This document shows, piece after piece, positions 1-60,388 of a stretch of DNA of 64,000 nt. The translations under genes and the position numbers were made by a program. The notes beneath the pieces are model-generated. The model was not told where the DNA came from and made no database searches. It was given only the letters and a program-made list of their open reading frames with translations. Position 1 is the first letter of the stretch. Each line of letters begins with the position of its first letter. Source of the DNA: a virus; the IMG/VR virus record IMGVR_UViG_3300032245_001520, positions 18,345-82,344 of that record, one strand, 5' to 3'.

Positions 1-128
1 CAGGCGACGACCGCAATCAACTGTCGGTCAGGGTGTGCCTTCTTAATGACTTGGGCGACGGCTGTAGCCAGAGTATTTTTCCCCAGCCCCCCTTGCACTT
101 GAAATACTACGTACTTGTTGTCTGACAT
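1..128 (-). CDS. Truncated gene, N-terminal 42 residues; possible glycosyltransferase-like protein
   Basis: The start codon is at 126-128 on the minus strand and the gene runs off the left edge of the window. The visible protein begins MSDNKYVVFQVQGGLGKN and continues with an alternating helix/strand pattern ending in IAVVA. The GGLGKN loop after a beta strand, followed by a helix and a PDR-x-LI-x-VV strand, resembles phage glycosyltransferase-like proteins I have seen. It also superficially resembles a ParA P-loop (KGGxGKT), but the final K-T/S pair is replaced by K-N, so ATP binding is doubtful. It follows the 693-residue fibre gene by about 50 bases. Function is uncertain without the rest of the protein. 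Confidence 0.6.
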   Translation of the reverse strand, partial: MSDNKYVVFQVQGGLGKNTLATAVAQVIKKAHPDRQLIAVVA

Positions 129-177
129 TGGTTTGAGTGCACTGAGTGTATTGTAGCGGTGGTGTGACAGTGTAAAC

Positions 178-2259
178 TCACGCGACAGTCACAATGATCA
201 TCGATGTACTGTTAGGGGGAGCAGTGGCAAAGGTTAGGGTACTTCCCGTGAAATTGTAATGAAGACCAGGCACCTGGGGAACCCCTCCAACAAACACAAG
301 AAGATTGTTCGCGGACGGTGAATATGGAACTCCACTAGAAGACATTCCAAACACAGTCGCAGTGCCATTGGGCGCGGGAGTCGTAGCGAGGAAGAGGAAG
401 GAGGGGTTGCCCGCAGCACCAGGTGCGCTGAGGATACCGTCTCCGTCGACGAACACCGTCGCGTTGTCCGGCCTCACGACGCCGACGGCAGTGGTCGTCG
501 CTGCGGTGATGCCGAGCGTCGGCGTGGTAACAGCGCCGGTCTTTGTCAAAGGTGCTGTGACCGAGACACTTTGCACTGCGGTACCAGTGGCAGCTGCTAT
601 GAGTTGACCCTGTGCGTTAACCGTAATGTTCGCGTTGGCATAAACACCAGGAGTTACGCCGCTGTTCGCCAACGAGATCGTGCCGGTGGACGTGATGGGT
701 CCGCCAGTCAGACCGGTGCCGGTGGCCACAGAGGTCACAGGTGTGTCACCGCTTGCCGCTGCTGTCAGACGACCTTGGGGGTCGACGGTGAACGACCCGT
801 ATGTGTAGTCACCAGCAGCGACTGCCGTATTCGCGAGAGAGACGGTGCCGACACTAATGATAGGACCGCCAGTCAGACCAGTGCCGGTGTTGACTCGGGT
901 GACGGTGCCCGTGCCGGTGCTAGCGCCATCGCATATCTGCGTGATGCGACCTTGCTGATCGACTGTTACGTCTGCATTGAGATAAGTGCCAGGGATGACT
1001 GTTGTGTCAGACAGGTAGACTGTGCCAACAGTTGTGATCGGACCACCCATGAGTCCGACGCCAGTGTCGATTTGAGTGACGGTGCCGTTGACTCCACACT
1101 GCGACCGCCATCCGACCTGACCGGTGACCTTATCGAGCAGGGTGAGGACCGACCCATTCTGGCCAGGGGCGATGCCCGGCGAGGTAGGGATTGGCCAGAT
1201 GTACGAGTTGTAGGAATATGGGTTGTTGGTGCGGACCACTTGGTCAGCACTAATGACGCCATCCGTTCCGATGCTAATGTTGGTGCCTGCCCGGACGCCA
1301 CCGAGGGTCGTGGCAGTCGGAGGGAGGAGACGGATCGTGCCGCTGGTCGTGATTAGATTGCCCGAGACCGGAGCGCCGAGTCCAGGACCCGCCTGAATGC
1401 TGGTGACGGTGCCGAGGTTGACGGACGACAACTCGCCCTGGGCAGTGATGTTGAGTCCGTTGCCGATGGAAACGGTGCCACGGGTGACTCGTGTGGCAGG
1501 GGCGACTGAGACGCCAGGGAATGTTTGGGTGGGCGAGAAGACGATGTCTCCTGCCATCGTACCACCTGCAAGAGGCAGTTTGGTGTTGGTGACAGCAAGA
1601 GCAGCGATGACTGAGTCTGCAACCGTCTTGACTGCCTTACTCGTCGCTGCTTGTGTCGAAGAACTGCTGTCGGTGGCGTCCGAGAGAGTTGTGAGACCGA
1701 ACGCACCGCCAGTCGTGGCGATCTTGTCGCGCAGGGTCAGAGGGGTGACAGCGAGACTGCCATTGTTGCCATCGACAACCTGCTGTGATGTGGCAAGTTG
1801 GATGACACCTCGACCACCAAGAGAGGCAGAGGGGACGTCGATCTGACCAGCATTGATCGTGAGCGACGGTCCGACACGGACGATACCCGCGATTGCGTTC
1901 GTGGCGACGTTGGCATTGAGGGTGACTGTTCCGCTGAGACCGCCACCGTTGAGTCCGGTGCCCGCGACGACCCCAGTGATGGTGCCGGTTCCGGGAGAGG
2001 CGACGGAGATGGTGCCATCGGGGGATATTTGGACATTCGCCCCCGCTTTAACTCCTCCGATTTGGCCAGCGAGAGGTGGCAGCAGACCGACAGTGCCTGT
2101 CGTTGCGATGGTGCCGCCAGACAAACCAGTGCCAAATGTGATCGAGGTGACAGTGCCGCCAGCGGTGGAGGCGACGTTGAGGTATCCTTCCTGGTCTACT
2201 GACAGTCCCGCACCCAACAGCAGGGTTCCTTGGGGCCAAGTTACGTTGAAAGCAGGCAT
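178..2259 (-). CDS. Repetitive tail fibre protein (693 aa)
   Basis: Low-complexity fibre protein rich in Gly, Thr, Val and Ser, with almost no charged clusters or cysteines. A repeat of about 45-60 residues recurs through the chain: GTVTS/R-x-x-x-GTGL-x-GGPI-x-x-x-GT-V/I-x-L, followed by an x-x-DPQGRL-x-AA segment. A segment near residue 150 (GRGVIQLATSQQVVDGN) matches the QLAT/EVDAG segments in the two fibre genes at 35326 and 37916. The C-terminus (LLVFVGGVPQVPG, then strands to IIVTVA) is a compact beta domain of the kind that ends many phage fibres and matches repeats in the 1650-residue protein upstream. A promoter-like decamer lies 27 bases before the ATG. Likely a receptor-contacting or fibre-shaft protein; the exact position on the virion is unknown. 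Confidence 0.8.
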   Translation of the reverse strand: MPAFNVTWPQGTLLLGAGLSVDQEGYLNVASTAGGTVTSITFGTGLSGGTIATTGTVGLLPPLAGQIGGVKAGANVQISPDGTISVASPGTGTITGVVAGTGLNGGGLSGTVTLNANVATNAIAGIVRVGPSLTINAGQIDVPSASLGGRGVIQLATSQQVVDGNNGSLAVTPLTLRDKIATTGGAFGLTTLSDATDSSSSTQAATSKAVKTVADSVIAALAVTNTKLPLAGGTMAGDIVFSPTQTFPGVSVAPATRVTRGTVSIGNGLNITAQGELSSVNLGTVTSIQAGPGLGAPVSGNLITTSGTIRLLPPTATTLGGVRAGTNISIGTDGVISADQVVRTNNPYSYNSYIWPIPTSPGIAPGQNGSVLTLLDKVTGQVGWRSQCGVNGTVTQIDTGVGLMGGPITTVGTVYLSDTTVIPGTYLNADVTVDQQGRITQICDGASTGTGTVTRVNTGTGLTGGPIISVGTVSLANTAVAAGDYTYGSFTVDPQGRLTAAASGDTPVTSVATGTGLTGGPITSTGTISLANSGVTPGVYANANITVNAQGQLIAAATGTAVQSVSVTAPLTKTGAVTTPTLGITAATTTAVGVVRPDNATVFVDGDGILSAPGAAGNPSFLFLATTPAPNGTATVFGMSSSGVPYSPSANNLLVFVGGVPQVPGLHYNFTGSTLTFATAPPNSTSMIIVTVA

Positions 2260-2286
2260 TTACTGAGACGGCGACCTTCTTAAAGT

Positions 2287-2296
2287 GGTTTTACCC
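2287..2296 (-). promoter_or_regulatory. Promoter-like decamer, 693-aa fibre gene
   Basis: GGGTAAAACC followed by ACTTTA on the minus strand, 27 bases before the ATG. Part of the family described in the findings. Confidence 0.65.
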
Positions 2297-2321
2297 TCGT
2301 TCTTGTGGGGAGGACCCTTTG

Positions 2322-3440
2322 TCAGATCGTTACGTCACCCCAGACTCGCGCACCTGTAACGATTGTGACATTGACAATCCTGCCGTTCTTTTCGATAGCT
2401 GACCCTCCAGCGCCGCCACGCGCAAGTACCGCGCCAGCTACAAAGTTAGAGTTTTGGCAGTTCCCCCCTGAAGCACCCCAACCACCTCCGCCAGCGGCAC
2501 CCTGTTTTGTGCCTGTACCTGCGTATCCCGTGTTAGGCCCCGCGTTGTTCTGCTGTCCGCCGACACCGCCTGCATAAGCTGAACCTAGAATCACAAATTG
2601 ACCACCCCACGCGCCCGCACCTGCTGAGGAGTACAGAGATCCTACGGGGTTGATTAAGTTGTCGCCAGGCAGTATCGTACCCCCCATACCGCCGGAGTAC
2701 TTGCGGTTATCCGGTGTGTCTCCTTGAGGGGGACCGAAAGAAGGGGTGGGGGTAGGGATTGTTGTTACCGGGTTGGGACCTCCCCCGATGCCAAAACCTG
2801 CTCCGCCTCCTCCTCCGCCTGACGCGATGGAGACTAGACTAGTCTGCCCACTGGCAGCTCCACCTCCGCCACCTCCGCAAATGTACCCCGGTGTGCCATT
2901 GGTGACAGAGATATTTACACTGCACGGAACGTAGACGTTGGTTTCAAACCTCAACGCTGGCCCACCCCTGGCCCCGTTCCTGAAAAGAGGGTCGTTGCTC
3001 TGAGACCCGCCAGTACCCCCCTTGCCTAGGAGTGCTCCAGCCACGTCCATCACGAAAGAGTCTTTCCAGTAGGTGTTGTTGTAGGCTTGGCCTCCTGCAA
3101 TTGTGAGTGCGGCGGTGGTAGTGAACCTTGAGAATATGTAGGTAGAGCGGGGCACTGTAACAACGAAGGCAGTCCGGCCACGAATAATGGCCGCGCTGTT
3201 CATATCGAACGTATAGTTGGTTGTCTGGGTTTGACTTAACAGGTTCACGGATTTTGTAAATATCCAACTTGAACCTAACCACTGAGAAGCAGAGACTGAG
3301 GCGGAGTTTTGAGCAGGGAACTCCTCAAATAGCGCTAGAGAGATGGACTCAGGGGAACCCCAGTTGAAGTTGACGCGAGACATCCCTATTTCGTTGGCGA
3401 CGTCTAGAGCGGAGATTGGGCCGGTTGAGGGAAGTGCCAT
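2322..3440 (-). CDS. Glycine-rich tail adhesin-like protein (372 aa)
   Basis: The N-terminus (MALPSTGPISALDVANEIG) is a common opening of phage tail-fibre and tip proteins. After about 130 residues the sequence becomes extremely glycine-rich, with runs such as GGGGGGAASGQ and GGGGGGAGFGIGGG, then SGGMGGTILPG and AAGGGGWGASGG. Such runs are typical of polyglycine-II helical bundles in adhesins like the gp38 tip proteins of T-even-like phages. It ends VTGARVWGDVTI, a terminus often seen in glycine-rich phage tip proteins. It is followed by the 693-residue fibre gene and preceded, 8 bases away, by the 1169-residue fibre gene, so it may be the tip or adhesin of one of these. The functional assignment is inference from composition. 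Confidence 0.75.
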   Translation of the reverse strand: MALPSTGPISALDVANEIGMSRVNFNWGSPESISLALFEEFPAQNSASVSASQWLGSSWIFTKSVNLLSQTQTTNYTFDMNSAAIIRGRTAFVVTVPRSTYIFSRFTTTAALTIAGGQAYNNTYWKDSFVMDVAGALLGKGGTGGSQSNDPLFRNGARGGPALRFETNVYVPCSVNISVTNGTPGYICGGGGGGAASGQTSLVSIASGGGGGGAGFGIGGGPNPVTTIPTPTPSFGPPQGDTPDNRKYSGGMGGTILPGDNLINPVGSLYSSAGAGAWGGQFVILGSAYAGGVGGQQNNAGPNTGYAGTGTKQGAAGGGGWGASGGNCQNSNFVAGAVLARGGAGGSAIEKNGRIVNVTIVTGARVWGDVTI

Positions 3441-3448
3441 AGCTAGGG

Positions 3449-6400
3449 TCAGGGCAGGGTGGCGAAAGCAGTGATGTTTCCACGAACTTGAAGGTCGCCT
3501 GTGTTGGTGAGACGCATCAGAACGGAAGCGTTACCAACGAGTCTGAAGTCGAGGTTTGTACCGTTTTCGCGAATCCACCAGTTGCCGAACACACCGTCAA
3601 GTTTCCAGGCGACACCTGCAGCACCTGCGGACCCGAGAACGTAACCTGCTCCGCCATTGGAGAGGTTGCAGTCAATGATGCCAGCGCCAAACTGGACGGA
3701 CTTGTCTGTGTTACCCCGAATCCAGTAGTTGGTACCGTATCCGATGGCCATCTGACCGCTGGCAGTGGGGGAAGGTGCTTGGACGTTCGGTCCGATGAGA
3801 ACGTTGTTGCTTCCGGTAGTCAGGGTGCTGCCAGCGTTAAGACCGACTGCCACGTTACATCCGCCAGTGGTGGTAGCAAGTGCCGTTGCGCCGATGGCCA
3901 CGTTACCAGCAGCTCCTGTGCTTCCGCCGCACATCGAATTGTAACCCAGGGCAACGTTGAAGTTGCCGGGGGCGCCGACGGAGAGGGCGGCGTTGCCGAT
4001 CGCGACGTTACCGTTGGAGACTCCACCAGACTTCAGAGCCCCGTCCCCCAGTGCGGTGTTGTTGGAACCAGTCGTGACTTGGAATCCTGCACACTGGCCG
4101 ATGAGGGTGTTGAAATTAGCGACGGTAAGGCATTGGCCGGCGAATCCCCCAAGGGCAGTGTTGACTCCATTGATCGCTGAGGCTAGGGCACAGTTGCCAA
4201 CGGCCACGCTGTTGTTGAGACTTCCGCCAAGAACCGTCCCACTGAGGGCGCTGGCTCCGACCGCGACGACCCCGTTGGAAGTGGCAACACATTGCCCGGC
4301 AAGGGCGCCAACGGCGGTGTTTCTCTCTCCGTTGCTGGAGCGAAGAGTGCAGGTGCCGACCGAAGTGTTGTTCGAGACCAGAGCGCCGACGTTCTGAGCG
4401 CAGTAACCTACAGCGGTGTTGTTAAGGGAACCCGAACCACTGGAGAGGTTCTGAAGGGCGGCGAAACCAATACCCGTGTTGGATACTGAAGTAGAGTTGT
4501 TGTTCCCGGCGCACTGGCCGAGATAGGTCGGACCGCCAACGCATGTCTTGGCGAAGACCGTTCCGGCAACGACCGGAGTAGCGGCGGAGGTGGCTACCGA
4601 CCCCCAAGCTGTGCCGGTGCCTGTGCTCGTGAGTGCCTGACCTGATGTGCCGAGGTTACCAGCGGTGTCCCTCAGACCTTTGACGATCTGAACATTGAAA
4701 CCGGAGTCGCCCTTGATCCAGGTGCCAGAGGTGACCCAATCGTTGGACCCGATGACCAGTTGGAGGGATCCAGCAGCATCGTCGACTTGAGTGCAAGCAC
4801 CAATGACAACGTTGCCACAACCGGTCGTGACGTTGCGTCCGGAGGCATGACCTAAGAAGGTGTTATGGCGACCAGTCGTAAGAGTGAGACCAGATTGGCA
4901 ACCGACAGCAACGTTGCGACATGCCTGACCTGCACCGTTCAGAACAGGCAGAGCACAGAAACCAACGGCAACGTTGCCGGGGTCGTTAGCGGTCATGGCA
5001 GACAGTGAGAAACCGCCGATGGCCGTGTTCCCGGAAGAAGATGTGCTAACCTGAAGAGCAGATATTCCGATGGCAACGTTGTCCGACCCCCCGACCAAGA
5101 GGTTGCCGGCACAGTACCCGTTGACAGTGTTTCGCGTGCCGGTCCGCAAGGAACTCAGAGCATTCTGGCCGATAGCCGTGTTGAGGGTGCCGGTCGTTAC
5201 AGAGGCCAGGGCGCAGTTGCCAAACGCGGTGGTGCCGTTTGCCGCGTCACTCGTGCAACCAAAGACGATGCCTGCGACTGTCGGTGTGGCCGATGGGACC
5301 GACTGAGCACCGGCAGAGATGACGCCGGTCGGACTAACTGTGATGGTCGTGCCATCGACGCACACACCACCGAGGACGGTGGTCGTGGCGAAAGGAAGAA
5401 CGTAGGCACCAACCCCGTTGACCCAGGTGAGACCACCCGACCCATTGCGAGAAAGGTACTGGCCAGTCGCACCAGTGTTGCCGCCGGAGTCGAGAATGGT
5501 GTTGGCGAACTGGACCGCGCCAGTCGAGTTTCCACGGATCCAGGTAACGTTGTTGGAACCGATCGCGAGTTGCTGGTTGCCCGCAGGGAGAGTGACGTTT
5601 GTTTGGGGTCCAATGATGACGTTGCACGACCCGGAAGTTAGACCGTATCCGGCACAGAAACCGACGGCGACGTTGGTTGAACCTGTCGCAGACCCCGAAA
5701 CATCGCCAATAGCCAGGTAACCTAGGGTAGTGTTGTTACTTCCAACTCCCAGCCCTAGTCCGGAACAAGAACCCACAGTTGTGTTTCCGGACGAGTTTGA
5801 AGCGATCCCTGACCCGGAAGTGAACCCTAGGAAGGTGTTGTTGCATCCGCCCACGACAGATTCACCTGCGGACTCGCCTAGGGCAGTGTTGGAGGAACCA
5901 GTGGATCTACGCAGGGCGCACATTCCGACTGCGGTGTTGCGGGTTCCTGTCACCACGCTGCAGAGACTGTTGTAACCCACCGCAGTGTTGTTCGCGCCAG
6001 CGGCGAGACTTCCTAAGGCGTTGAATCCGACAGATGTCGCGAAGGAAGGAGCGTTGAGGGAGCACCCGTACACCAAACCGAAGTTGGTCGGAGTGGCAGG
6101 CGTAGCGACGGGAACGCTACCCCAAATGACCCCGTCTCCTGAGGATGCCAGCACTTGACCAGCGGTGCCAATAAGTCCGTTGCAGTCGATCAGACCAGCG
6201 CCGAGGGCCACGTTGCGGTTTTCATCTCCGCGAAGCCAGTAGTTGGGACCGCCTAAATCGCTGTTTCCGATGACCAGTTCGTTGCTAACTGTAGGAGAAC
6301 TGGTCTCCACACCGTATCCGATCAGAACATTACCACATCCGGCAGTGTTGTTCTGCCCTGCGTTTAAACCTAGAAAGATATTTCCGATCCCCTCGGTGAA

Positions 6401-6996: not shown

Positions 6997-7458
6997 TTAA
7001 GAAATGGTGGCGGAAGAGGTTTGCACCCACTGCGTATTATACAGCACATAGAGCAAACCCGTGGCGGTATTAAACCACATGGTGCCGTTCACATAGTTCG
7101 CAGCATTGGGTGTGGTGTCTTGGGTTAGTGCCTGCGCATACTGGGGCATGGCAAACACGAAATTGCTACCATCAAACACTCGCAGTTTGGGTACAGTTTC
7201 CGAAGTGTCTAACCACAACTCACCCTTGGTGTTTCCAAGGTCTCCAGGAGCACTCGCTCCGGTGTTGGGGGCAGTGGTGCCAACAGAGCACGGTCCCACC
7301 TTGAAAAGTGTCGTACCAGTGTCATCTGCGAAGAATAACCCTGGTTGTCCGGCATTGGTGTTGATCGCTCCTTGACCCGGAAGAAGTAGAGCAGCGATGG
7401 GTCGTTTATTGAGAACGCTGCTCCTTAATAGCTGAACCGGGGTGACTTGTGTTGCCAT
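6997..7458 (-). CDS. Short fibre-module protein (153 aa)
   Basis: Consists almost only of the N-terminal module shared by the fibre family of this window: LLRSSVLNKRP, then GQGAINTNAGQPGLFF, LFKVGPCSVGTTAPNT and GELWLDTSE. A second short part repeats the idea (YVNGTMWFNTATGLLYVLYNTQW). No adhesin body follows. It could be a chaperone, an adaptor that occupies a docking site, or a truncated relative of the neighbouring large fibres. A promoter-like decamer is 51 bases upstream of the ATG, further than usual. Confidence 0.75.
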   Translation of the reverse strand: MATQVTPVQLLRSSVLNKRPIAALLLPGQGAINTNAGQPGLFFADDTGTTLFKVGPCSVGTTAPNTGASAPGDLGNTKGELWLDTSETVPKLRVFDGSNFVFAMPQYAQALTQDTTPNAANYVNGTMWFNTATGLLYVLYNTQWVQTSSATIS

Positions 7459-56529: not shown

Positions 56530-57393
56530 CAATTATGTTATCGCCAGTGTGTTTATCACTGACTTCTGCATGTTTCTATGCAGTTCAGACTATATCTTCT
56601 TCCCTGAACTCCTTTATAAACCTCTGAAGAGTTTTTGATCTGTAACCATTTTTCTTAGTGCCGAGACCGAGTAACTGCCCGAGAAGGATATCTCCAGGTT
56701 TATTGTTATCGTTCCAGACTTTCCGTATCTCAGACTTTCTGCTCTCCAAATCTTTGTTAGAGTTGGGATGAGAAGACCCCCTGGGTGTATTTGGGGATTC
56801 TAGTCTTGCCTTTGAGATGTTTGAACGTCTCTCGGGAGTTTGCGGTACCCCTTTCAGGGAATCAGCGATACGGGAGTTATGTGATTCAGTCCTAACATAG
56901 TTTTCTCGGAGGTATTCGTAAACTCTTCCCCCTCCCGAAGAACTCATTCTGAAAACTGCGTACCACAGACCTTCGTGGTCTGGGAACATTTTATTCAGGA
57001 GTCGGTGAAGGATGAAGTGTTGCCTAAGAGTCGGATAACAGAGGTTGTCTGGATCCGTTTTGCTACCGCCGAGACATTTAGAAACTATGTGATGCTCTTC
57101 TGTCTTATGGGAGTTTGGACGAGTTTTAGGGCACTGGTTGATAATTTTCCAATACCACCTCTCGTACTTGTTACGATAGTAACATTCAGGGAGTGGGGCA
57201 CTCGTGGATGGGTTATTGTTGTCGAGACTCACCATCTAGTCGTTGAACCTTTTTACTGCAAACATTATAGCAATGTTTCGACGCAGTAAACTTGGCTGCT
57301 GATTGCCTTGTGTTCGGATTACCGAACCGTCAGGGTTCCCAGCAATTCACCCCATTGACTCGCGGATCAGGCGAGTAATCTGACGTTACCGTC
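56530..57393 (-). ncRNA. Group I intron 2 in the capsid gene
   Basis: An 864-base intervening sequence. Its 5' part has a GNRA-capped hairpin next to the exon boundary, then GGTGAATTGCTGGGAACCC, AATCAGCAGCCAAG and GGTTCAACGACTAG (57236-57249). Its 3' part has GATATAGTCTGA (56585-56596). GACTA and TAGTC can form the P7 helix, the guanosine-binding core of group I introns. The intron carries an HNH endonuclease gene placed between the two P7 strands (loop P8). The same conserved blocks occur in intron 1. Boundaries are estimated from reading frame; P1 has not been proven. Confidence 0.85.
56585..57235 (-). CDS. Intron-encoded HNH homing endonuclease (216 aa)
   Basis: HNH motif EEHHIVSKCLGGSKTDPDN, quoted in part, continues with YPTLRQHFILHRLLNKMFP: His-His, Asn, His in the expected order and spacing (about residues 47-85). 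The N-terminus has a WYWKIINQCPKTRPNSHKT segment. NUMOD3-like repeats (SRIADSLKGVPQTPERRSN, ISKARLESPN) occur at 118-150. The ATG follows GACTAG directly and the TGA overlaps the 3' P7 strand, so the gene fills the P8 loop exactly and its last codons (GAT ATA GTC) also form intron core. More A/T-rich than the exons. Confidence 0.9.
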   Translation of the reverse strand: MVSLDNNNPSTSAPLPECYYRNKYERWYWKIINQCPKTRPNSHKTEEHHIVSKCLGGSKTDPDNLCYPTLRQHFILHRLLNKMFPDHEGLWYAVFRMSSSGGGRVYEYLRENYVRTESHNSRIADSLKGVPQTPERRSNISKARLESPNTPRGSSHPNSNKDLESRKSEIRKVWNDNNKPGDILLGQLLGLGTKKNGYRSKTLQRFIKEFREEDIV

Positions 57394-58321
57394 AGACCAC
57401 GCATTCAACTCGTTTGAAAGAAACGATGTTATTAGCATACGTGTAAGCGAACGCAGGAGTGGCAGCGTTGGCGCCACCAGCAGGCATCACGGAGTCGCTG
57501 GGGCCGTTCGGGCTGTAGAACAGCAGGAGGCCATTCTCAGGGAACACGGGCAGCAGTTCACCGGACTCGGCCAGATAACGACCTTCGGCAACACGCAGAC
57601 CACGCTCGAGACCGAAGTAGCGAGCGAGCATGTCGGTGTCGATGCTGTCAGCGGTGGTGTACTTGATGCGCTCAAGGATCGCGCTGTTGGTCAGCAGCTC
57701 ATCGAACACAGCGGTACCGACCACCATCGAGTTGGGGCGGATGCCGATCTGGTTAGCGACGGCACGCTTCAGAGACAGGACGTCTTGGATCGGGTTGGAG
57801 GTCAGGGCAGACCAGGCAGCGGGGCTGGCGGCCGAACCGTAGGCAGTCTTGAAGGCAGCCCAGTCAACGAAACCGAGGCCGGTCTGGGTGCCAGCGCCAG
57901 CGGTGGGTTCGTAAGGATTGTAACCGGCAGTCACGGTCACGGCTTGCGAGACGGTGTACTCGTAAGCATTCATCAAGCGGGACATGGCGTTGCGAGTTTC
58001 AATCGCACGCAGGTCAACCTGGGCGGGACCTTCGCCAGCGTTCTCGATGGTTTCTTCGGGGAGTTCCCACGCAACCACTTCTTGCTCAAGAGCATAAGGC
58101 TCCGAGTCAAAGCGGCTCTGGACGTAGGGGATGTTGGTGCCATAAGCACGACGGAAGTCGTTGATAGCAAACTGCTCCTTCCCAAAGCGAAGGATTCGTC
58201 CAGCCCTTGTGGGCGTGTCAACGACGGGCGCGATAAAGTTGGCGATATTAGTCGCCGGAAGCATGAAACCTTGTGCAAGCGTAGTCAAAATTGGATCTAC
58301 GCCCGCATAGGTTTGCGAGAG
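57394..58321 (-). CDS. Major capsid protein, main exon (exon 2)
   Basis: Encodes LSQTYAGVDPILTTLAQGF, then FIAPVVDTPTRAGRILRFGKE, RFDSEPYALEQEVVAWELP, RNAMSRLMNAYEYTVSQAV and a late NQIGIRPNSMVVGTAVFDEL: the typical order of the phage major capsid protein E (lambda/Mu-like coat) family, including an early 'V.D....gri..f....f', a central amphipathic helix and 'N.mv.g..v...l'. Joined with exon 1 (59195-59218) and exon 3 (56366-56529) it gives about 371 residues, a normal length for this family. It is interrupted at both ends by group I introns. Without splicing only a truncated protein (GTG at 58322-58324 to TGA at 57392) could be made, lacking its C-terminus. Confidence 0.87.
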
Positions 58322-59194
58322 CACTTTGTTATCGTAACGACTCTTTATTCGTTACTTCTCATACTTTCGTGTGAGGTCAGACTATATCATCATCTCGGAT
58401 TTTTCCCTCGTTCCCACCCTTCCCCGGGGTGTTTTTCTGAACGAGTTCTGATCACTACTCCATCCACGATCTTCCAGTACCACTTCAGACGAGAGATAGA
58501 CTCACTTGTCTTTTTCCTGGACTCTTCGGATTGTGTAGATCCTTCTCTGGAGCAACGGTCTCTAAGTGTGGGGTCGTTTATCCACGCTTGTTTCATGGAC
58601 TCACTCAGGTTCTCTCTATGCTCCTCTGTTTTCTCTTTCCCTGATAGCGCCTTGGAGATTTTGTCCCCCCAGGTTACTTCTCTTCTCCGGTTGGATTCAG
58701 CAATGAGCTTTGACTTCTCTTCGCAACTTTGAATGTATGCCAGAGACTTGTAAACTCGAGACCCCTTGGATCCGCACATAATGGCAGCGCACTGTGCCAG
58801 TTTTGTTTCATTTGGATAGGATTTGTGAAGCAGTAGATGCAGTAAAGCGTGCTCTCTGCGGGTCACTAGAACCACATTTCCCTCCACGTAACTTCCGCCA
58901 AGGCACCCCGGCAGAATTCTGTGCTTTTCAAGGCGATCTCTTTTTTGCTTCTTCCTGTGTAAAGATAAGAGAAAATTGCAGAGTCGAAGGTATCGGTTGA
59001 AGTAATGATCGTTCCGAGAGTCGGGCACTCGTGGCAAGGTTATTCTTGGGTCAGTCACTTGCTAGTCGTTGAACCTTTTCACTGCACTCATCATAGCTGA
59101 TGAGACCCGCAGTAAACTTGGCTGCTGATTTCCCTCGACTTTACGTTAGGGGTTCCCAGCAATTCACCCGATTTTCCACTCAAAATCACTTCTG
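58322..59194 (-). ncRNA. Group I intron 1 in the capsid gene
   Basis: An 873-base intervening sequence that separates an 8-codon exon 1 from exon 2. It has the same conserved blocks as intron 2: GGTGAATTGCTGGGAACCC, AATCAGCAGCCAAG, GGTTCAACGACTAG (59062-59075) and, at 58380-58388, GATATAGTC; GACTA/TAGTC form P7. Immediately after the exon a 12-pair hairpin with a GTGA tetraloop (about 59173-59200) could be P1 extended into P1ex. The intron ends with ...CGATAACAAAGTG, similar to intron 2 (...CGATAACATAATTG). It carries an HNH endonuclease gene in P8. Confidence 0.83.
58390..59058 (-). CDS. Intron-encoded HNH homing endonuclease (222 aa, GTG start)
   Basis: HNH core LEKHRILPGCLGGSYVEGN (in part), then VVLVTRREHALLHLLLHKS: the same layout as the endonuclease of intron 2 (His-x-IL/V, GCLGG, N, H). 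NUMOD3-like stretches KISKALSGKEKTEEHREN and LSESMKQAW follow at about 140-165, and a C-terminal SEESRKKTSESISRLKWYW. GTG at 59056-59058 opens the frame shortly after GACTAG. The protein is clearly related to, but well diverged from, its intron 2 counterpart. Confidence 0.88.
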   Translation of the reverse strand: MTDPRITLPRVPDSRNDHYFNRYLRLCNFLLSLHRKKQKRDRLEKHRILPGCLGGSYVEGNVVLVTRREHALLHLLLHKSYPNETKLAQCAAIMCGSKGSRVYKSLAYIQSCEEKSKLIAESNRRREVTWGDKISKALSGKEKTEEHRENLSESMKQAWINDPTLRDRCSREGSTQSEESRKKTSESISRLKWYWKIVDGVVIRTRSEKHPGEGWERGKNPR

Positions 59195-59218
59195 AGGGGA
59201 ACCGAATCGATTCATCAT
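59195..59218 (-). CDS. Major capsid protein, exon 1 (about 8 codons)
   Basis: A CTCTCCTTAGGAGAACAATC sequence upstream offers an AGGAG-type ribosome-binding site, followed by ATG ATG and codons for M-M-N-R-F-G-S-P. The frame then meets a stop (TGA) in the intron. Joining CCT at 59195 to CTC at 58321 restores a full-length capsid reading frame. The second ATG at 59215 may be the true start. This tiny exon is inferred from the ribosome-binding site and intron structure, not from homology. Confidence 0.6.
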
Positions 59219-59824: not shown

Positions 59825-60367
59825 TCAATGCCTCGCCAGGATATGGCGAGAAAGGTTGTTGGAAGAGACTGTCAGTTCGCAGTGAGGGCACTGCTTGAAT
59901 GACCTGTTGATCTTTCCATGAGGTAGTTTCCCGCTAACGTAACCCTCGCCGGGGCACGTGTGAGACCTTTTGTTGTTTAGTCCGTTGTTCCAGTAGGGCA
60001 TTTTGCCGGTGGACTGTCCACCTTTGGCTTTGCCCTCTGTGCTTTGTTTTGACCCGTTGAGTCGGGACTGATTTGACCGCTCTTCGAACGGTCGCGAGTT
60101 GTAGTTTTGGATGTTTTGAATAGCAGCTGGCAGGAACTTATCGCTTAGCTCTTGACCCTGCTTGCAGGCTTCTTGCCTTGCCTGCTCCACTGTCCAGTCC
60201 CCTGAGAGCAGATTTGCAGCGCAACAGTCATAGTAGTCGCCAGTTTCTTTGTACCGCAGACGGTGAAGAAACGAGTGCATCGCCCTGTTAACACGGACAA
60301 GATTGGCGGGATCGTCAGTGCCCCCTGCGTGAGTGGGGAGTAGGTGGTGTTTGTGCCAGGTGATCAT
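59825..60367 (-). CDS. Free-standing HNH homing endonuclease (180 aa)
   Basis: HNH motif at the N-terminus: ITWHKHHLLPTHAGGTDDP, NLVRVNRAMHSFLHRLRY, with catalytic His pairs and Asn in place (about residues 3-40). The middle carries a basic Ser/Asn/Gly stretch (GSKQSTEGKAKGGQSTGKM) of the type seen in DNA-binding repeats. The end is a zinc-finger-like CPHCELTVSSNNLSRHILARH (in part), C-x2-C-x13-H-x5-H. A promoter-like decamer is 21 bases upstream of ATG (60367). It interrupts the head operon between minor head and decoration genes. Confidence 0.85.
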   Translation of the reverse strand: MITWHKHHLLPTHAGGTDDPANLVRVNRAMHSFLHRLRYKETGDYYDCCAANLLSGDWTVEQARQEACKQGQELSDKFLPAAIQNIQNYNSRPFEERSNQSRLNGSKQSTEGKAKGGQSTGKMPYWNNGLNNKRSHTCPGEGYVSGKLPHGKINRSFKQCPHCELTVSSNNLSRHILARH

Positions 60368-60388
60368 CAAGTTGGTTTCTCTTTGAAG

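Follow-up and report, generated by a model that had tools for sequence, protein, structure and literature searches.

The major capsid gene of a cyanophage-like virus is interrupted by two group I introns, identified as such from their sequences, and each of them carries an ORF for a predicted HNH homing endonuclease. In intron 2 this ORF covers most of the 3' half of the ribozyme core. Comparison with related sequences indicates that the double use of the DNA extends over a large part of the catalytic core and is also present in related phages. The arrangement is very likely that of a mobile, IA-like group I intron with an HNH ORF in the P8 loop, which would be read from and into the core as a result of 'core creep' and would serve homing. 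The stretch of DNA analysed (hereafter the window) comprises 64,000 nucleotides of virus record IMGVR_UViG_3300032245_001520, which has 82,344 bases. Both introns and their elements lie on the minus strand.

An Rfam search of the window matched RF00028 to intron 1 at 59220-58358 (70.0 bits) and to intron 2 at 57440-56566 (69.0 bits). Both matches span model positions 1-253 and exceed the gathering threshold of 50, so that the covariance model recognises each intron as a full ribozyme. The splice sites were inferred from homology with the capsid gene of Synechococcus phage S-CBWM1, the nearest named relative, in which the gene is uninterrupted, together with an exon-final U and an intron-final G. 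On this basis intron 1 (888 nt, 58322-59209) is inserted after the first nine coding bases of the capsid gene (ATGATGAAT), and intron 2 (909 nt, 56530-57438) after ..TAC ACG T. The joined exons encode an in-frame capsid protein of 351 amino acids in line with that of S-CBWM1, the sites having been picked with the U/G rules in mind. One covarying hairpin is located between P7 and P3. An extra pairing at this place, P7.1, is a trait of subgroup IA (IA2 also has P7.2), and the introns are tentatively described as IA-like. We take the hairpin to be P7.1 from its place, with the P-numbering in general use in the field.

Mapping of the intron 2 ORF onto the core showed where coding sequence and ribozyme coincide. 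The 5' strand of P7 (GACUA, 57237-57241) is followed by a G that completes an in-frame UAG just before the ATG. The ATG is contained in the 5' strand of P7.1 (GAUGG, 57232-57236), which forms a 5-bp hairpin with the coding 3' strand CCAUC (57207-57211), and compensatory pairs are found in relatives. The 5' strand of P3 (UGGGGUG, 57348-57354) lies upstream of the ORF; its 3' strand (UGCCCCA, 57194-57200) is coding, as are the two strands of P8, UCCCUGAA at 57185-57192 and UUCAGGGA at 56601-56608. The 3' strand of P7 (UAGUC, 56588-56592) is formed by the end of the codon ATA and by GTC, and the stop TGA (56585-56587) is directly 3' of it. The ORF thus begins in P7.1 and takes in the 3' strand of P3 and the 5' side of P8 before the loop; past the loop come the 3' side of P8, J8/7 and, just ahead of the stop, the 3' strand of P7. 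The original prediction, that the ATG directly follows GACTAG (57241-57236) and that the last codons, GAT ATA GTC TGA, contain the 3' strand of P7, was borne out. It had also held that the ORF fills the P8 loop exactly; this is wrong, since the ORF starts in P7.1, and P8 itself (on both strands), J8/7 and the 3' strand of P3 are coding as well.

Intron 1 had been expected to be laid out almost identically, and the layout is indeed similar. The last base of its P7.1 5' strand (GCAAG, 59058-59062) is the G of a GTG start, which lies three bases past GACTAG instead of directly after it. The 3' strand of P7.1 (CUUGC, 59034-59038), the 3' strand of P3 (UGCCCGA, 59021-59027) and the 5' strand of P8 (59013-59019) are coding, P3 being read in a frame that differs from that of intron 2. 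The 3' strand of P8 (58393-58399) is encoded in the last codons. The stop is one base, and not two, 5' of GATATAGTC, and the 3' strand of P7 (UAGUC, 58380-58384) is noncoding here.

P7, P7.1, P3 and P8 all covary in the sequences compared. The helices were examined in 28 of 53 ORF-bearing introns, a class defined by the xTGA motif together with an ORF that starts either directly after GACTAG or 3 bases further on. P7.1 was fully paired in 28/28 members, with 8 different strand pairs, and P3 in 25 of the 26 in which both strands were present. A P8 of at least 6 bp was formed in 22/28 members, versus 146/748 when strands were crossed between loci; for L121 and for the first ORF of L142, a simple pairing search gave helices of just 3 bp. 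Since P7 is invariant in this motif-selected set, a separate scan for the variant GACCAG was performed. TGGTC was found nearby downstream in 27 of 58 distinct GACCA sites and TAGTC in none (0/58), whereas TAGTC followed 76 of 115 distinct GACTA sites and TGGTC none (0/115). In the initial loci P7 covariation was uninformative (6/200 non-GACTA sites versus a shuffle mean of 2.0 and a maximum of 8). When P7.1 was folded alone, no unusual stability was observed in three sequences (z +1.7, -0.6 and +0.9).

The intron 2 ORF (56585-57235, 216 amino acids, start at ATG 57235 or GTG 57232) and the intron 1 ORF (58390-59058, 222 amino acids, GTG start) matched the profile phrog_655 with E values of 4.5e-33 and 2.1e-20, respectively. 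Weak HNH similarity to a nuclease of known structure (E 2e-4) was also obtained, and the Pfam search of the window ORFs gave no HNH match. Family profile and location within introns lead us to predict that both proteins are HNH homing endonucleases. Like the phrog_655 homing endonucleases, they match the profile; they differ in carrying ribozyme-encoded tips beyond the match, which in the intron 2 protein takes in residues 21-176 of 216. A free-standing ORF adjoining the capsid region (59825-60370) shows a weak phrog_655 match and a zinc-finger-like C-terminal end that is below the Pfam cut-off.

At the 5' end of the intron 2 ORF the frame is closed by the UAG after GAC in the 5' strand of P7, and then come the ATG and a GTG. 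After these two codons the next ATG, GTG or TTG comes no earlier than residue 83, beyond the HHI HNH motif. ACG stands in place of the ATG in four class members (L008, L009, L173 and L167), which start one codon later, and GTG 57232 may therefore be the true start of the intron 2 ORF. No ribosome site with good spacing was seen by eye upstream of the ORF starts, and the intron 1 start, GTG, is a weak one. At the 3' end, GAT ATA GTC TGA closes the ORF in all five loci (with three distinct sequences) whose proteins are 66-79% identical to that of intron 2, and the reading frame is kept in 5/5. One relative of intron 1, in L015 (about 520-1389), lacks the in-frame P7 stop: its frame continues upstream without a stop across the 5' half of the core and has no start in P7.1.

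A further question is whether the RNA or the protein holds the shared codons. In the ORF bodies the changes fall mostly at third positions (difference of 0.57 at third positions versus 0.25 at positions 1 and 2 for intron 2, and 0.49 versus 0.19 for intron 1), a pattern like that of real genes under selection. Suppression of synonymous change had been suggested as a check on the overlap, and it was detected in both introns. Among degenerate codons with an invariant amino acid, 11/15 were also base-invariant in the overlaps of the intron 2 set, versus 9/87 in the body (5 sequences; Fisher p 9e-7). For intron 1 the values were 8/11 versus 10/83 (7 sequences; p 5e-5). The comparison covered the 5 close relatives among 13 class proteins for intron 2 and 7 of 13 for intron 1, excluding L015 and divergent ones, and L008, L009 and L173 were read one codon upstream of their ATG to maintain the alignment register.

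The same bases had been expected to be constrained by protein and ribozyme alike. Their dual use is supported, over a wider stretch than had been predicted, by the synonymous suppression and by the covariation of P7.1, P3, P8 and P7. At the tips, the constraint from the protein seems weak, because related ORFs leave P7 in other frames and P3 is read in two frames. Thus, the related proteins of L181 and L146 end in GEDIV and GVKI, and those of L005 and L172 in KEEDIV and RKKI. Identity among 13 proteins with a shared P7.1 averages 75% over codons 2-13, 43% at 14-20 and 27-51% thereafter, and the drop after codon 13 coincides with the P3/P8 boundary. A conserved N-terminal protein motif was rejected as the main cause of this pattern, since introns 1 and 2 translate the RNA element in different frames and conservation fades past codon 13. 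The AlphaFold model of the intron 2 protein (mean pLDDT 70.5, pTM 0.41) predicts residues 1-17 to be disordered (pLDDT below 50) and a C-terminal helix at 201-215 with fair confidence; in a structure search with this model, no match reached E 0.001. Given the predicted helix, the 3' overlap may have some role in the protein. As judged from the alignments, the overlap codons are held more by RNA structure than by protein function, and our reading is that the N-terminal codons are probably held by the RNA and the C-terminal tail tolerated rather than selected. The protein tips of intron ORFs would then be RNA structure in translation, and conservation at the ends of intron endonucleases should not be taken as a sign of protein function.

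The second core of L121, located at 7429 on the minus strand and between codons 93 and 102 of the capsid gene, belongs to the same class and has no P8 ORF. It has the same P7.1-P3 sequence, with the P7.1 start codon retained, and a 7-bp P8 hairpin. A start codon unique to ORF-bearing introns was considered and rejected, given that the xTGA motif is also present in 15/77 introns without a P8 ORF.

The position of the ORF stops was analysed in a survey seeded by motifs from intron 2 of the window, which therefore does not sample group I introns at random; duplicate loci were merged by sequence, and near-identical ones such as L012 and L013 were kept. In 103 introns chosen by their P7 motifs, stops were counted in an 18-base segment made up of the GA(T/C)ATAGTC motif with six bases on its 5' side and three on its 3' side. 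The J8/7-P7 segment (GAUAUAGUCUGA) closes two or three frames in 98/103 introns (three in 52, two in 46 and one in 5). Among random stretches of 18 bases drawn from these loci, the mean was 0.71 closed frames, and all three frames were closed in 58/20,000. An L8 ORF without a stop of its own would hence end at P7 in whatever frame it is read. A long insert was present in 59 distinct introns, 53 of which have an ORF by a set rule, the other 6 being excluded. In 42 of the 53 the ORF stops between -2 and +12 of the motif, and all three frames are used (15 stops at +12, 9 at +7, 3 at +2 and 15 at -2 to 0); the remaining 11/53 stop outside this zone. Taking only the loci newly added by the motif scan, 15/20 ORFs stop at the P7 motif. 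Several unrelated nuclease families, among them endonuclease VII, HNH, LAGLIDADG and GIY-YIG, are represented in the 10 of these 42 ORFs that were classified. This indicates that the neat 3' fit of the ORF to P7 is due to stop codons built into J8/7-P7 and not to a special fit. The little-tested idea of core creep is thereby made countable, the stop position being set by stop codons in the catalytic core.

A mobile IA-like intron affected by core creep would work as follows. The frame opens after the UAG of the 5' strand of P7, and its only usable starts (ATG or GTG) are in the P7.1 hairpin; translation would then take in both strands of P8 along with J8/7 and the 3' strands of P3 and P7, so that the ribozyme motifs themselves would provide the start and stop signals of an ORF brought to its present overlap by core creep. 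A ribosome that starts in P7.1 would have to unfold P3, P8 and P7 en route. Translating ribosome and folded ribozyme would be mutually exclusive locally, and at any moment a transcript would either splice or make endonuclease, the latter only from unfolded or not-yet-folded transcripts. The predicted endonuclease would cut intronless capsid alleles, leading to homing.

Overlaps of this kind can be annotation artefacts, as cautioned in PMC3073962, with a protein that starts later or ends earlier and core codons that remain untranslated. The GTG start of intron 1, the lack of a well-spaced ribosome site by eye, the predicted disorder of the 17 N-terminal residues and the L015 frame without a P7.1 start are in agreement with such an artefact. 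We consider it improbable, because the next possible start in intron 2 would leave out the HHI motif, no earlier in-frame stop exists at the 3' end, and the frame is kept in all five relatives. Far less probable still is that P7 is made of other bases, which would render its coincidence with the ORF end meaningless: the Rfam alignment has the core in order, and the compensatory GACCA/TGGTC and GACTA/TAGTC variants contradict this possibility, which had been named as the finding that would overturn the overlap.

A different proposal is that of a tuned regulatory switch, in which selection would have sequestered the start in P7.1 and only misfolded or nascent intron RNA would yield endonuclease. 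In each of the 28 class members, which were selected by start position, the start falls within the covarying P7.1 or at its end, and intron ORFs with sequestered or weak initiation signals have been documented (PMC3073962). On the other hand, the occurrence of the xTGA motif in introns without a P8 ORF makes a regulatory origin unnecessary, and P7.1 is weak alone; a switch of this type seems rather unlikely to us. Core creep in a mobile intron is the preferred explanation. We tentatively put forward, as a possible extension of it, that phage IA-type cores might act as ready-made expression cassettes in which folding and translation exclude each other and the P7 stops influence the retention of P8 ORFs. 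P7.1 would give the start, one P7 strand the upstream UAG and the other strand stops in nearly every frame, and nearly any nuclease domain landing in L8 would become a complete gene; the N-terminal peptide MVxxxNNNxSTSA of the intron 2 class would be translated ribozyme. Long P8 inserts were found in 2/29 GACCA-type versus 26/102 GACTA-type introns (p 0.04 without correction for relatedness), a difference that gives a hint of such an influence of the P7 stops. The loci with GACCA-type P7 introns, which have no UAG in P7, are L242-L321.

Overlap between ORF and core has already been published, and the present case is a further example and a clear test of core creep. That term was given to overlaps at one or both ends, which were tabulated by Edgell, Chalamcharla and Belfort (2011, PMC3073962). 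The overlapping ORF termini are proposed there to be non-essential, and Table 1 includes the Synechococcus lividus rDNA intron (81 nt over P6/P7/P3/P8/P9.0/P9) and SPO1 (9 nt in P8). As in those cases, the ORF runs here from the loop into the core; in contrast to the overlaps described there, the stops cluster at P7, and P7.1, a covarying hairpin, contains the start. The coding sequence in the window includes core pairings and is selected as protein. With regard to the length of the extension, stops occur in all three frames, and in most ORFs they fall between -2 and +12 of the P7 motif. The switches between DIV and KI tails and the disordered N-terminus agree with dispensable tips, although the C-terminal helix is predicted to be ordered.

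Another near case is the intron of I-PfoP3I, from cyanophage Pf-WMP3 (PMC3428280), a group IA2 intron with an HNH ORF. Bases of this ORF are predicted to form part of P6a, P6, P7, P7.1 and P7.2, and splicing and nicking are reported. It differs in starting in P6a instead of P7.1, in residing in a DNA polymerase gene instead of a capsid gene, and in the typical ribosome-binding site reported for it, whereas no well-placed one was seen by eye here. In the T4 td intron the 3' end of the I-TevI ORF likewise forms part of P6a, P6.0 and P7, but the enzyme is of the GIY-YIG type (PMC3073962), the ORF is in the P6 loop and the overlap is of 20 nt, at the 3' end only. A figure legend of a review (PMC3984707) also mentions ORF/core overlap, and a 2025 survey (PMC11878797) notes gpI elements that overlap nuclease genes. 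Neither clustering of stops at P7 nor ribozyme-derived N-termini were found in the literature searched, which was mostly that available without subscription.

A side finding of this work, which may matter more than the overlap, concerns relatives of the virus: four related contigs have this capsid gene split into many more pieces than in the window. The one in L136 (IMGVR_UViG_3300044846_005229, minus strand, about 73-5451) contains 12 group I introns. Rfam gave 11 matches in it, and the spliced alignment, which imposes U/G intron ends, gave 12 introns with such ends and a P7 motif. They are located after codons 3, 12, 13, about 31, 50, 53, 64, 91, 93, 106, 122 and 298, with micro-exons of 5, 8 and 10 bases. 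The spliced product matches at 254/351 residues, and its frame is open up to the last intron, where the locus ends. No phage gene with more introns was found in the literature searched, and a crAss-like capsid gene in five fragments has been called intron-rich (PMC7886860). As a chance yardstick, the wrong-strand spliced alignment of L011 scored 74, versus 1135-1409 for the three better loci, under slightly different settings. Apparent introns after codons 338 and 348 were discarded as alignment artefacts, the P7 motif being absent. These capsid genes, with up to 12 group I introns, constitute a natural series in which one intron class occurs with and without an ORF. By spliced alignment, 9 group I introns were identified in the capsid gene of L181 (288/351 residues matched), at least 10 in that of L199 (294/351) and at least 7 in L142, a truncated locus (136/351). 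The introns of L142, L181 and L199 are at mostly the same sites, and the 5-base exon CCCAT recurs in all of them.
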